Shown: piece by piece, positions 28,629-35,470 of the stretch
Layout: each line of letters starts with the position of its first letter
Numbering within the stretch: position 1 is the stretch's first letter
DNA from: Buchnera aphidicola (Cinara splendens)
Lineage (GTDB): Bacteria > Pseudomonadota > Gammaproteobacteria > Enterobacterales > Enterobacteriaceae
Length of the DNA stretch: 64,000 nucleotides
NCBI RefSeq assembly: GCF_900698975.1
Contig: NZ_LR217722.1
Coordinates: forward strand, 62,001 to 126,000
Direction of reading: 5' to 3'
Notes under the pieces: generated by a model
What the model was told of the DNA's origin: nothing
What the model saw: only the letters and a program-made list of their open reading frames with translations
Database searches by the model: none
Program-made: the position numbers and the translations under genes

Positions 28629-28789
28629 TTTTCCATGTATATGATATAGTATATTATAGATATTTTTCTGATTGTTTTTTTTAATTCACACAAAATATAG
28701 ATATTATTTAGAATATTGTAGATTTACACAATATTTATTTTAAATAAATATATATTATTGATATAATATGAATTTTATAAGGATTGAAT

Positions 28790-30724
28790 ATGCCGATTGT
28801 TATATCGTGCAACGGAGTTGATAAAAGTTATACTAAGATAGTTACTGTAAAAAAAATTCTGGAAGATTTTTATCCTATACATACATCAAATTTTGTAGCA
28901 GGTTTAGTAAATAATAAATTAGTTACTTTAAATACAATTATATCTAAAAATTCAACAATTGTGATGATTGATGACAGTAATCAAAATTTTCTGTCTCAAG
29001 TAAAAAGGTCTTGTATTCAATTGTTAAACCGTGTATTAAAAGATATATGGTTAGACGTTAAAATAGCTAATTCATGTATAAATGAATTTGGATTTCACTG
29101 TGACATTGATATGTCATATGTACTAAAAAAAAAGGATTTACATGAAATTTCTAAACGAATGTTAAAAAAAATTTCTACTGCTTATAAAATATTTGTTAAA
29201 CGTGTTGATATATCATATTTTTTAGATTTTTTACAAAAAAATAATGAAACTTATCAGATTGATATTATTCGTAAAAAATACAGTAGTAAAAATACTATTG
29301 ATGTTTGTTATCATGAAGATTATTGTGAATTTTATGATCATGCTCAAGTTTCTAATATTAAGTTTTGTGAACATTTTCTTTTACAAGATGTATCAGGAGC
29401 TTATTGGAATAGTAATAAAAATAATAAAATGTTACAAAGAATTCATGTAATAATTTGTACATCAAAATATCAATTATTAAAGTTTTTATCTATTTCAAAA
29501 GAAATAAAAAAAAGAGATCACCGTAAAATTGCAAAATTATTAGATTTATATCATATTCAAAAAGAATCACCGGGTATGATATTTTGGCATAAAAATGGAT
29601 ATGTTATTTTTAGACAATTAGAACAGTTTATTCGTGATCACTTATCTAAACATCATTATGAAGAAGTTAAAAGCCCTGTTATTATTGATAAATCTTTATG
29701 GGAAAAAAGCGGTCATTGGAAATATTATAATACATCTATTTTTATAACTAAATCTGAAAATAGAGAATATTGTATTAAGCCTATGAATTGTCCAGCTCAT
29801 GTTCAAATTTTTAAAAGTAAATTGCAGTCTTATAAAGATTTACCGATACGTATCTCTGAATTTGGAAGTTGTCATAGACAAGAATCATCTGGTTCATTAC
29901 ATGGATTAATGCGAGTACGTGGATTTACTCAAGATGATGCTCATATTTTTTGTACTCCAGAACAAATAAAAAAAGAGTTAAATGATTGTATTCATTTATT
30001 ACTTAATTTGTATAATACTTTTGGTTTTAAAAAAATTTTTATAAAATTTTCTACTCGCCCTATAAAAAGGATTGGTAGTGAAAAAATGTGGAATCAAGCA
30101 GAAGAAGATTTAGAATATGTGCTAAAAAAAAATAATTTATCATTTCAATATCAAAGAGGAGAAGGAGCTTTTTATGGCCCTAAAATTGAAATATCTTTAG
30201 AAGATAATTTACAAAGAATATGGCAATGTGGAACTATTCAATTAGATTTTTATTTAGCGCGACAGTTAAATGCTTATTATATTGACAAAAATAATGTAAA
30301 AAAAAACCCCATTATTATTCATAGGGCTTTATTAGGTTCGATAGAAAGATTTATAGGTATTTTACTTGAAGAATTTAAAGGAAAATTACCGATATGGTTG
30401 TGTCCTATTCAAGTGAATGTAATTAGTGTTTCTATATTACATTCATTATATGTACAAAAAATAGTGCAAAAATTATTATTACATGATATTCGAGTTATTT
30501 TTGATATAACTAATACTAGCGTTGGATTTAAAATTCGTTCTTCTATTGTGCAAAATATACCATATATTTTAATATGTGGAGATAAAGAAATACAAAATAA
30601 GTATATTACAATAAGAAATAGATTTAGTAATAAACAATACAAATCTACAATTGATATTTTTATTAACAATATTACAAATAATATTAAAAATCGTAATCTT
30701 CAGGATTTTATAATGGAGGGTTAG
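28790..30724 (+). CDS. thrS: Threonyl-tRNA synthetase with degenerate editing site
   Basis: Class-II synthetase charging tRNA-Thr. Domain order is TGS-like N1 (1-61), N2 editing domain (62-225), catalytic core (about 242-535) and anticodon-binding domain. Core zinc ligands Cys334 (MNCPAH), His385 (DDAHIF) and His511 (IIIHRAL) are at E. coli positions, and the class-II motifs RVRGFTQDDAH and GSIERFIG are intact. The editing site is not: the E. coli residues His73, His77, Cys182 and His186 are Arg, Gln, Tyr and Gln here. ATG 28790 follows AAGGA (28779-28783); it gives 644 residues (E. coli 642). The infC ribosome-binding site is embedded in its last codons. Confidence 0.96.
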   Translation: MPIVISCNGVDKSYTKIVTVKKILEDFYPIHTSNFVAGLVNNKLVTLNTIISKNSTIVMIDDSNQNFLSQVKRSCIQLLNRVLKDIWLDVKIANSCINEFGFHCDIDMSYVLKKKDLHEISKRMLKKISTAYKIFVKRVDISYFLDFLQKNNETYQIDIIRKKYSSKNTIDVCYHEDYCEFYDHAQVSNIKFCEHFLLQDVSGAYWNSNKNNKMLQRIHVIICTSKYQLLKFLSISKEIKKRDHRKIAKLLDLYHIQKESPGMIFWHKNGYVIFRQLEQFIRDHLSKHHYEEVKSPVIIDKSLWEKSGHWKYYNTSIFITKSENREYCIKPMNCPAHVQIFKSKLQSYKDLPIRISEFGSCHRQESSGSLHGLMRVRGFTQDDAHIFCTPEQIKKELNDCIHLLLNLYNTFGFKKIFIKFSTRPIKRIGSEKMWNQAEEDLEYVLKKNNLSFQYQRGEGAFYGPKIEISLEDNLQRIWQCGTIQLDFYLARQLNAYYIDKNNVKKNPIIIHRALLGSIERFIGILLEEFKGKLPIWLCPIQVNVISVSILHSLYVQKIVQKLLLHDIRVIFDITNTSVGFKIRSSIVQNIPYILICGDKEIQNKYITIRNRFSNKQYKSTIDIFINNITNNIKNRNLQDFIMEG

Positions 30725-32045: not shown

Positions 32046-33065
32046 GTGAAACTACAACAAGAAATATATAAATCGATACAAAAAATCTTATATCATGCTA
32101 TGTACGAAATAAAAAAAATAGATGATATTACATCACTTAACAATTTTAAATCAAAATATTTAGGAAAAAATAGTGTTTTATATTTTTATCTTTCTAAATT
32201 AATTACTCTGGAAGTTTCAGAACGCATACAGTGTAGTGTTTTTTTGAATAGTTGTAAAAAAAAAATTCAAGATAAAATTAATTATAAAAAAAAGAAGTTA
32301 CAGGATAATCAATTAAATCAACAAAAAAACAAACATTTTTTAGATTGTACTTTGCCGGGTAGAAAAATTGAAAAAGGTAATTTACATCCTCTTACTATTA
32401 TTATTAATGAGATCAAAAAATTTTTTAATTATTTGGGTTTTAAAACATTTTATGGTCCAGAAATAGAGAGTACATATTATAACTTCGATGCTTTAAATAT
32501 ACCAAATGATCATCCAACTAAAAGTATGAATGATACTTTTTGGTTTGATATAAATCATGTATTACGAACACAGACATCTAGTGTACAAATTAGAATTTTA
32601 GAGAAATATTCTATTCCTATACGTGCAATTGTTCCTGGAAAAGTATATCGTCGTGATTATGACCACACGCATACACCTATGTTTCATCAGGTCGAAGGTT
32701 TAATTGTGGATACTTCAATTTCTTTTTCACACTTAAAATGGATTTTAGAGAATTTTATTATTAAAATTTTAAATAAAAATGTAAAGGTACGTTTTCGCAA
32801 TTCATATTTTCCCTTTACTTGTCCTTCAGCTGAAATGGATATTCAAGATAAATATGGAAGATGGTTAGAAATACTAGGATGTGGTATGGTTCATCCAAAT
32901 GTTTTAAAATACTGTAATATTGATAGTAATACGTATTTAGCCTGTGCTTTTGGTATTGGTGTAGAAAGAATAGCTATGTTAAAATATTCAGTTTCTGATA
33001 TTCGTTGTTTTTTTGAAAACGATATACGATTTTTAAAACAATTTTATAATAGTGAGAAATATTAA
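32046..33065 (+). CDS. pheS: Phenylalanyl-tRNA synthetase alpha subunit
   Basis: Catalytic subunit of the (alpha-beta)2 class-II enzyme. LDCTLPGRKIEKGNLHPLT, FYGPEIES-type segment, RTQTSSVQIR, YRRDYDHTHTPMFHQVEGL (motif 2) and the motif-3 region FGIGVERIAMLKYSVSDIR are intact. N-terminal about 90 residues form the coiled-coil tRNA-binding arm. It is 339 residues (E. coli 327). The start appears to be GTG at 32046; no ATG is available before the homologous region. Its stop overlaps the pheT ATG by one base (TAATG), so translation is coupled and gives equal subunits. Confidence 0.96.
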   Translation: MKLQQEIYKSIQKILYHAMYEIKKIDDITSLNNFKSKYLGKNSVLYFYLSKLITLEVSERIQCSVFLNSCKKKIQDKINYKKKKLQDNQLNQQKNKHFLDCTLPGRKIEKGNLHPLTIIINEIKKFFNYLGFKTFYGPEIESTYYNFDALNIPNDHPTKSMNDTFWFDINHVLRTQTSSVQIRILEKYSIPIRAIVPGKVYRRDYDHTHTPMFHQVEGLIVDTSISFSHLKWILENFIIKILNKNVKVRFRNSYFPFTCPSAEMDIQDKYGRWLEILGCGMVHPNVLKYCNIDSNTYLACAFGIGVERIAMLKYSVSDIRCFFENDIRFLKQFYNSEKY

Positions 33066-35470
33066 TGAAGTTTGGAGAAGAATGGTTATATAATTGGATT
33101 GATCCGTCTGTTTCAAGTACACGGATATGTGAGCAATTAACAAATTTTGGTTGTGAAGCGGAATGTATTCCTCATAAACAGATTTATGTAAAGAATACCA
33201 TTATTGGTCAAATTATTTGCAAACAATTGTGTTCTACTAATAAAACATTAATAAGATATACAGTACGTATACATTATGATAAAAAAATTTATATTGTCTT
33301 TAAAGATAAAAAATATTTATTAGTAGGGTCTAAAATATCAATTATTTTACCTAACTTGATTTTAAAAGAAAATAAACATTTTATATCATCAAATATTAAA
33401 AAAGATAGATTAGATTGTACTTTTGGTTCGTATCATTTATTAGGAATAGAACAAAATAATCACGATATTGTTATTTTTACAGATAATGCTTTAATTGGAT
33501 TAAATTATAATTACTATATGCGTATAAATAAATATATAATGAAATTTTTTATTCCATTTAATAGAGTAGATTTGCGTTCTATTTGGGGTTTATCTCGTGA
33601 AATAGCTTTGTTAAATAACTTGCCTATACCTAAATTGAAATATCAAGATGTATTATTACGTTCTCATTCTTGTAAAAATAGCATAGATGTTACTGTTAAG
33701 CATGATTATATACAATATATTTTTTGTGAAATACACTCTGTACAGGTCTGTTCTATTTTGCCAATTTACATTCAAGAAAGATTAAGACATGCAAGTATGC
33801 TTACAGATAATATAATTATAAACATTATTAATTATATATTTATTGAAACGGGTCATTGGTTTCATATATTTGATTTAGATAAATTAAATAATAAATTAAA
33901 TAATAAATTAAATATATATAGTTTAGAAAAAAAAGAATTTATTAGTAATATTCATGATCAAAAAATTTGTTTACAAGAAGGTACTGTTGTTTTATCAGAT
34001 TCTAAAAATATTTTATCTTTTGAAGATATGGAATATTCTAGATATTGTAAAGTTAGTCGTTATACAAAAAATTTATTTTTAGGGTCTATATGTTTTGATC
34101 CTATATTTATACAACAACGATGTTTATTAGTACCTTCGATTGATAGACAACTCGAATACTCTAAGTATAACATATATCCTTCTTTGCAAAAAAATATTTT
34201 TCAGTATGCACAAAAATTAATAACAAGTATATGTAGAGCAAAATCTTCTGTTTTTAAAGAGTATCATATGAAAAATTGTATTAATAAGTCTACTGTATTG
34301 TTATTAAAACTTGAAAGGTTAAATAAAATTACTGGAATTTCTTTTTTTAAAGAAGATGTACTATCTATTTTAAAGATTTGTCGTTTTTCTTTTCATGAAG
34401 AGAAAAATATTTTTTATGTTATACCGCCTTTTTGGCGTACTGATATTAAAATTGCTGAAGATGTGGTTAGTGAAATTATTCGAGTTTATGGTTATAAAAA
34501 AATTGTATCCAAACCACCTACAGAATATATGAATGTTATGTTGAATAAACATAAGAACATCTCATTATCACGAATTAAATTATTTCTGATAGATCGTGGA
34601 TATTTTGAAATTATTTCATATAGTTTTATAAATCCTATGACACATAAATATTTTCTTTCAGACAATAATACTATTAAAATATGCAATCCTATTTCTAATG
34701 ATATGTCAGAAATGAGGTCATCAATATGGATTAATTTATTGAATTGTATTTCCTACAATCAAAAACGTCAACAAGAATCTATTCGTATTTTTGAAACTGG
34801 ATTATGTTTTTTTGCGAGTAAAAATAATTGTGCTTCTATAATTCAACACGAATATTTATCTGCTGCAATAAGCGGTTTTGTTAGTCGTCGTGAATGGTAC
34901 TTAAAAAATAGAAAAGTTGATTTCTATGATTTGAAAGGTGATATTGAATCTATTTTAAATATTTGTGGTAAATTAAATCATGTAGAATTTATTTCAGAAA
35001 AATATATTGGGTTATGTTCTAGACAAAGCGCAGGAATTTATTTATATGGTCAGTTAGTTGGTAGAATTGGTGTTTTAGATGCTTCTCTTCATCGAATTTT
35101 TGATTTAAAGGATTCAGTTGTTTTATTTGAAATTATGTGGGAAAAAATTAATAGCTATTCAGTTATTAAGAAAAAATCTATATCTTTATTACCAAACAGC
35201 AAAAGAGATATTTCTATTATAGTATCTGATACTATTTTAAGTAAAGATATTTTAAATATATGTCACGATAGTATTAGTATCCATACTTCAGATATATATA
35301 TATATGACATATATACTGGATCAAATATTCCTTTTAAAAAAAAGAGTGTATCTATTTGTTTTATTTTTCAAAGTACTGATATCATGTTACATGAATCAAA
35401 AATTAACTCTAATATTTTAAAGTGTATAGAGGAATTAAAAAATAAACTAGGAGCAGTTTTAAGAAATTAA
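33065..35470 (+). CDS. pheT: Phenylalanyl-tRNA synthetase beta subunit, degenerate editing domain
   Basis: Non-catalytic partner of PheS, needed for tRNA binding and, normally, hydrolysis of Tyr-tRNA-Phe. Length is 801 residues (E. coli 795). The C-terminal core-like and anticodon-binding (FDX) parts are well conserved: FWRTDIKIAEDVVSEIIRVYGY, NRQQ-like KRQQESIRIFETGLCF, VDFYDLKGDIES, LLPNSKRDISII. The EMAP-like N-terminal domain is poorly conserved and the B3/B4 editing region (about 210-370) is badly diverged: the GG-FGG loop and the HTDAS-RYERG motif of E. coli are gone, and the editing Glu334 equivalent is lost, though a His267 remains. A 12-bp tandem repeat lies inside this domain. In frame throughout, so function in aminoacylation is probably kept. 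Confidence 0.94.
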   Translation: MKFGEEWLYNWIDPSVSSTRICEQLTNFGCEAECIPHKQIYVKNTIIGQIICKQLCSTNKTLIRYTVRIHYDKKIYIVFKDKKYLLVGSKISIILPNLILKENKHFISSNIKKDRLDCTFGSYHLLGIEQNNHDIVIFTDNALIGLNYNYYMRINKYIMKFFIPFNRVDLRSIWGLSREIALLNNLPIPKLKYQDVLLRSHSCKNSIDVTVKHDYIQYIFCEIHSVQVCSILPIYIQERLRHASMLTDNIIINIINYIFIETGHWFHIFDLDKLNNKLNNKLNIYSLEKKEFISNIHDQKICLQEGTVVLSDSKNILSFEDMEYSRYCKVSRYTKNLFLGSICFDPIFIQQRCLLVPSIDRQLEYSKYNIYPSLQKNIFQYAQKLITSICRAKSSVFKEYHMKNCINKSTVLLLKLERLNKITGISFFKEDVLSILKICRFSFHEEKNIFYVIPPFWRTDIKIAEDVVSEIIRVYGYKKIVSKPPTEYMNVMLNKHKNISLSRIKLFLIDRGYFEIISYSFINPMTHKYFLSDNNTIKICNPISNDMSEMRSSIWINLLNCISYNQKRQQESIRIFETGLCFFASKNNCASIIQHEYLSAAISGFVSRREWYLKNRKVDFYDLKGDIESILNICGKLNHVEFISEKYIGLCSRQSAGIYLYGQLVGRIGVLDASLHRIFDLKDSVVLFEIMWEKINSYSVIKKKSISLLPNSKRDISIIVSDTILSKDILNICHDSISIHTSDIYIYDIYTGSNIPFKKKSVSICFIFQSTDIMLHESKINSNILKCIEELKNKLGAVLRN
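33881..33913 (+). repeat. 12-bp in-frame tandem repeat in pheT
   Basis: The unit AAATTAAATAAT occurs 2.75 times (33881-33913), encoding the Leu-Asn-Asn-Lys repeat LNNKLNNKLN at about residues 274-283 of the PheT editing domain. It is a multiple of three, so the frame survives. Confidence 0.9.

Follow-up and report, generated by a model that had tools for sequence, protein, structure and literature searches.

Can the threonyl-tRNA synthetase (ThrRS) of Buchnera aphidicola from Cinara splendens still remove serine from tRNA-Thr and, if it cannot, what keeps its editing domain in place? The thrS gene lies at positions 28790..30724 on the + strand of the window, the whole 64,000-nucleotide stretch of DNA that was analysed, and belongs to the reduced genome of a host-bound bacterium (453,957 bases, 3 contigs, 98.57% complete). 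It was identified by its open reading frame, Pfam and a match to E. coli ThrRS and encodes 644 amino acids plus stop, starting at the ATG at 28790 and ending with the TAG at 30722-30724; the open reading frame listing starts it at a TTG at 28784. Phmmer aligned residues 1-638 of the window protein with residues 1-638 of E. coli ThrRS (1qf6_A) at E 4.2e-201; the printed alignment was gapless, and a pairwise MAFFT alignment had its sole gap close to the C-terminal end. Because the alignments are gapless except near that end, residue numbering is identical in the two proteins.

The domain layout was that of a bacterial ThrRS, with a class II core, an anticodon domain, the zinc ligands C334, H385 and H511, and N1 and N2 both at full length by the alignments and by a fold match to 1tje. 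All four domains are on the + strand. Alignment with E. coli placed the N1 (TGS-like) domain at residues 1-62 (28790..28975) and the N2 editing domain at residues 63-224 (28976..29461), limits that we take to be those of the E. coli domains; the E. coli alignments and a fold model agreed on a full-length N2 from which the catalytic residues are gone. The catalytic domain, by comparison with E. coli, covers residues 242-534 (29513..30391) and retains the zinc ligands, and the anticodon-binding domain covers residues 535-644 (30392..30721) by Pfam HGTP_anticodon. In the Pfam search tRNA-synt_2b and HGTP_anticodon were above the cut-off, and tRNA_SAD, the editing family, fell below it (15.5 vs 24 bits).

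The alignment put R73 (AGG, 29006-29008) in place of E. coli H73, Q77 (CAA, 29018-29020) in place of H77, Y182 (TAT, 29333-29335) in place of C182 and Q186 (CAA, 29345-29347) in place of H186, all on the + strand. The pocket differed further by E180 (29327-29329) for D180, Q156 for K and C104 for Y, at three positions that presumably line the ThrRS editing pocket. An earlier note on this DNA had claimed the shared numbering, the R/Q/Y/Q replacement, the full-length N2 and an untouched synthetic site with C334, H385 and H511 in place, and all of this agreed with the alignments. H73, H77, C182 and H186 are all termed critical for E. coli ThrRS editing in the accessible part of PMC4041444, where the editing kcat is down 7000-fold in H73A, 70-fold in H186A and more than 500-fold in C182A and C182S. 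Since all four critical residues are changed, post-transfer editing by the window ThrRS would be very unlikely, a loss of activity that we infer from the residues.

The distribution of the loss was read from ThrRS of 225 loci, made up of the genus (Buchnera of Cinara; 16/16 genomes), 80 named relatives and 129 loci of other family genomes. The named relatives were the best 80 of 496 found (e.g. Erwinia, Pantoea and Pectobacterium). They include at least three titled insect symbionts (L063, L089, L098), and the rest are mostly free-living. Among these best 80 of 496, H/H/C/H stood at 73/77/182/186 in 80/80, the free-living relatives having intact sites. Within the genus H73, H77 and H186 were absent from 16/16 genomes, with Q at position 77 in all 16 and Q, L and P at position 186 in 14, one and one. 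C182 was retained in 6/16 and position 73 was also variable. The alignment of Buchnera columns that the earlier note had proposed bore out the loss of three of the residues, and only C182 varied between presence and absence. Its claim that the loss is complete stood for the window, where all four are gone, but not for the genus, and the loss it described, with residues gone, N2 full length and the synthetic site unchanged, is not special to one genome (16/16 in the genus). The thrS frame was open and without stops in 16/16, at a mean N2 identity to E. coli of 32%.

The family search covered 392 genomes, and residues were read in 101 genomes from beyond the genus that are smaller than 1 million bases, in 17 family genomes of 1.0 to 2.4 million bases and in 11 larger ones. 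Residues were tallied in the 115 labelled rows, the genus included, whose N2 was filled in 100 or more of its 162 columns: four residues were kept in 33, three in 13, two in 2, one in 27 and none in 40. The 13 single-loss rows had lost H73 in 10, H77 in 2 and C182 in 1. N2 was absent or broken in 26/152 tree rows, counted as such when fewer than 100 of the 162 columns lay inside the open frame, so that rows with a 5' stop are included; four more rows with in-frame TGA were excluded from the tree. On this tree (quick LG+G4, with 49/148 inner branches open and long-branch warnings, so that counts of change are rough) there were at least 10 changes in domain presence or absence and at least 11 between intact and not intact. 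Separately, the thrS matches of genus g102 (L198, L245, L247, L248; G357, G297, G225, G116) carried 6-7 in-frame TGA codons, as if TGA were an amino acid codon. Those of genus g91 (L116, L120, L124) carried one or two in-frame stops, and their open frame spanned just 181-182 of the first 225 columns.

The timing of the loss was approached through the leu plasmid, which we take to be a Buchnera hallmark. In the thrS genome leuB and leuC sit on contig 2 (6,037 bases), a 2,500-base query from which matched a plasmid from the Buchnera of Cinara pseudotaxifoliae at 88.1% identity over 99% of its length; the plasmid records matched were Buchnera in 12/12. A 2,000-base query (L340) from contig 3 of the same genome (G000; 2,704 bases) had no hit in the plasmid collection. 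A LeuC search of 60 genomes of 22 genera gave matches in 50 genomes of 17 genera, and leuC lay on a second contig at coordinates below 8 kb for one or more genomes each of g1, g73, g18, g110, g92, g30, g52 and g100. In the 36 rows of those eight genera H186 was missing from 36/36 and H73 from 35/35 with the column filled, suggesting that their loss was probably early; H77 persisted in 4 of the 36. Loss would thus predate the ancestor of the genus and probably began with H73 and H186 in an early ancestor of Buchnera; H77 and C182 would have been lost later and separately.

Editing sites of other synthetases in the same cells were compared with E. coli as the sole reference, using residues that we take to be the editing residues of IleRS, ValRS, LeuRS and PheRS and, except for C666, of AlaRS. 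The AlaRS HxxxH and CxxxH motifs were present in 16/16 genomes of the genus, as were ValRS T222, K277 and D286, IleRS T241-T243 and D342, and LeuRS T247, T248 and D345. LeuRS T252 was present in 15/16 and R344 was changed in 16/16; in IleRS, N250 was C or S in 16/16 and H333 was Q in 2. The pheT gene, encoding the PheRS beta subunit (33065..35470, + strand, by open reading frame and alignment with E. coli), had most of these presumed editing residues changed. In the window and 15 relatives (L323-L337) R244, E334, T354 and A356 were all absent in 16/16, G318 was absent in 15/15 genomes with the column filled and H265 was present in 16/16, in an alignment that is loose in places. The ProRS insertion (editing) domain was seen in 14/16 genomes (L338, L019-L032) with 12 to 35 of 184 columns identical to E. 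coli, as compared to 115 to 126 of 223 columns in the part before the insertion. In G009 the ProRS insertion domain was mostly gone, with 35/184 columns filled. As read from these alignments, editing loss appears selective, the ThrRS, PheRS and ProRS domains being degenerate and AlaRS, IleRS, ValRS and LeuRS keeping their core residues.

The AlaRS and ThrRS pattern was also seen beyond the genus, as a comparison of family matches, the AlaRS residues having been read within the genus. In 80 small family genomes tRNA_SAD was above the cut-off outside thrS in 74 and in thrS-length frames in 33, among the matches listed. The matches outside thrS were in frames of 857 to 919 amino acids, the length of AlaRS, in 70 genomes and of 263 to 295 amino acids in four; the genomes with none outside thrS were two of g123 and four of g77, the latter 79 to 84% complete. 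All four ThrRS residues were kept in 11/80. The excerpt of PMC10057733 reports that growth of E. coli suffers little from ThrRS C182A and that mutation of AlaRS C666 inhibits growth of E. coli at elevated temperature, and the keeping of AlaRS and loss of ThrRS editing fits this difference in tolerance. The same excerpt reports a fitness cost of Tyr at Phe codons under oxidative stress; the cost of the error accounts poorly for PheRS, which is degenerate here despite that harm.

The explanation that we favour, and consider likely overall, is that N2 is dead for editing and kept as a clamp, with some Thr codons read as Ser and with selectivity set by tolerance of error. N2 of Buchnera ThrRS would be unable to hydrolyse Ser-tRNA-Thr, and Thr activation and transfer would proceed at the unchanged zinc site. 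Serine that slipped through would remain on tRNA-Thr and appear at some Thr codons, so that raised Ser-for-Thr mistranslation, which the earlier note had likewise expected, is predicted from the sequence. N2 would have been retained for the help it still gives in clamping the acceptor arm during aminoacylation. Editing would presumably have been abandoned for an error that does less damage (Ser at Thr codons) and maintained against one that does more (Ser at Ala codons). A more specific version, to which we give distinctly less than even weight, is that editing by ThrRS, PheRS and ProRS was selectively dismantled and that by AlaRS, IleRS, ValRS and LeuRS kept in the same cells over a very long time, with N2 becoming a purely structural clamp and recurrent H77Q, Y104C and H186Q changes repacking its former active site.

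Mistranslation would not be raised if fidelity were kept in some other way, through pre-transfer editing, better rejection of Ser or a high Thr:Ser ratio in the bacteriocyte, and Buchnera does supply Thr to its host. The synthetic site argued against this. At 18 ThrRS positions that we take to form the active site, 18/18 matched E. coli in 16/16 genomes of the genus, and there is thus no sign of a compensating synthetic site or of a new specificity; an altered synthetic site as compensation was discarded on these 18 unchanged positions. The full-length structure model was weak at residues 331-380 (block pLDDT 38-45) and the synthetic site was for that reason not read from it. Pre-transfer editing does occur in yeast mitochondrial ThrRS, which has no editing domain, but on its own it is insufficient in E. 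coli, yeast cytosolic and yeast mitochondrial ThrRS (available text of PMC4267643), and loss of the editing domain can accompany higher specificity in some ProRSs (excerpt of PMC11415595). A replacement editor acting in trans (AlaX, DTD-like, YbaK/ProX or archaeal ThrRS-ed) was a further candidate, and the earlier note had advised looking for a free-standing editing protein in the genome. A profile search of the thrS genome gave no match to PF02580, PF04073 or PF08915, and PF07973 matched AlaRS and, weakly, ThrRS and nothing further, so that across these four families only the two synthetases themselves were recovered and the candidate was dropped. On balance we regard preserved fidelity as unlikely, and Ser at some Thr codons stays the expectation.

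Plain neutral decay, with an N2 that serves nothing and is on its way to the deletion already seen in other lineages, would fit the 26/152 rows in which the domain is missing or broken, and these rows also count against our favoured reading, since a clamp is dispensable in those other lineages. The extent of divergence fits decay as well. Eighty-eight N2 columns were 95% conserved in 113 rows with all four residues, and the window differed at 50 of them; four conserved N2 columns picked at random would all have changed with P = 0.10, and for the seven pocket positions, three of them presumed members of the pocket, the corresponding value was P = 0.016. With 50/88 conserved columns changed, the four-residue loss is therefore no statistical outlier in itself, and the idea that it is one was set aside; what it shows is that the editing site is no longer protected as it is elsewhere. 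Across all 16 genomes of the genus 26/88 conserved columns were changed, so N2 has changed widely and not just at its catalytic site. In the 67 rows with 0-1 catalytic residues, 28 of the columns that are 95% conserved in the 113 intact rows stayed at 80% or more and 28 others dropped below 40%.

Selection on N2 spoke against decay. dN/dS was estimated by Nei-Gojobori with a codon bootstrap in 5 disjoint pairs of relatives, with linker 225-241, which reached 1.0 in one single pair, excluded from pooling. N2 gave 0.321 (0.255-0.404) and N1 0.377 (0.257-0.564), next to 0.317 (0.236-0.426) in the anticodon domain, and the catalytic domain was lowest at 0.143 (0.114-0.175). The N2 upper bound is well below 1 and its estimate equals that of the anticodon domain, and N2 is therefore conserved like another tRNA-binding domain; the catalytically dead N2 evolves under purifying selection. 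When -ln identity to E. coli is divided by that of the catalytic domain, the ratio was 2.62 for N2 and 2.65 for the anticodon domain in the genus, and 1.50 and 1.74 in 22 small genomes whose sites are intact. Neither a dN/dS near 1 nor an N2 frameshift was seen in close relatives (5 pairs; 16 genomes), and besides the stop-free frame in 16/16 the fold was confident. The N1-N2 model had a mean pLDDT of 92, with 1tje (the E. coli editing domain) and 1qf6 as best matches. Its superposition on 1tje was loose (TM 0.69, rmsd 7.6 over two domains) and side-chain positions were therefore not read from it. Neutral decay thus appears improbable, and retention of N2 for tRNA clamping would be the best reading of these data.

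The same selection would also suit a remodelled editing site, in which Cys104, Gln77, Glu180 and others form a different hydrolytic pocket. C104 (29099-29101), Q77 and E180 are fixed in 16/16 genomes of the genus and count against our main explanation, which leaves them unaccounted for. The retention of C182 in 6/16 genomes, the wide change of N2 and the P of 0.10 for the four-residue loss weigh against it too. Q77 arose in at least 11, C104 in at least 9 and Q186 in at least 8 changes on the tree and are hence recurrent, by rough counts, and among 7 independent pairs C104 accompanied H77 loss in 3 to 4 and never the reverse, which is not significant. Such a pocket is nonetheless very improbable, as E180 is nearly restricted to the genus and Q156 to the genus and g52, residues 73 and 182 differ between genomes of the genus, one would not expect Gln to serve as the histidine base, and C104 is unlinked to C182 loss (5 independent pairs). 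Cys104 as a replacement nucleophile was rejected on this missing association, counted on starred branches only.

An editing-dead N2 held as a clamp thus remains our favoured reading, and its general setting is known. Melnikov et al. 2018 (PNAS) reportedly surveyed ThrRS in about ten thousand genomes, and at that breadth Buchnera may be included. That loss of proofreading is a trend in host-restricted bacteria, as the earlier note had stated, is reported in the accessible parts of PMC7373986, PMC11020763, PMC10057733 and PMC11415595, which cite Melnikov 2018 for a widespread loss of editing sites. Our literature search found no paper joining threonyl-tRNA synthetase, editing and Buchnera, and Buchnera ThrRS is unmentioned in the excerpt of PMC4014445. 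Neither purifying selection on a dead N2 nor the contrast with AlaRS was found in print in the literature searched, mostly at listing level; purifying selection on the dead N2 and the selectivity among synthetases are what is added here. As a natural and long-lived case, the proofreading sites that were kept may reveal the cost of each translation error, AlaRS and ThrRS, whose editing domains are homologous, form a matched pair for comparing losses, and N2 offers a way to split its tRNA-binding role from its catalytic role.

Compared with known systems, the closest solved structures are those of E. coli ThrRS N1-N2 (1qf6, 1tje), from which the window protein differs in being without H73, H77, C182 and H186. 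A mitoribosomal large-subunit protein (4ce4 chain c, presumably mL39, and others) also matches the N1-N2 model; it has no synthetase role and is a fold analogy only. Yeast mitochondrial ThrRS MST1 is likewise without post-transfer editing, but there the domain is wholly absent (available text of PMC4267643). Mycoplasma resembles Buchnera in carrying natural editing-site mutations in a reduced genome, with defects in LeuRS, PheRS and ThrRS editing (Li et al. 2011, as cited in the excerpts of PMC7373986 and PMC4014445). Mycoplasma loses LeuRS editing whereas Buchnera here keeps LeuRS T247, T248 and D345, and the review excerpts (PMC7373986 / PMC4014445) know of no Mycoplasma with at least three editing enzymes lost, unlike Buchnera here, in which three appear degenerate (ThrRS, PheRS and the ProRS domain). 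Degenerate editing domains of host-restricted bacteria are alike in the small host-bound genome, the lost editing residues and the retained synthetic site; a difference may be that Buchnera here keeps the editing residues of AlaRS and the core ones of class Ia and holds its dead N2 under purifying selection.
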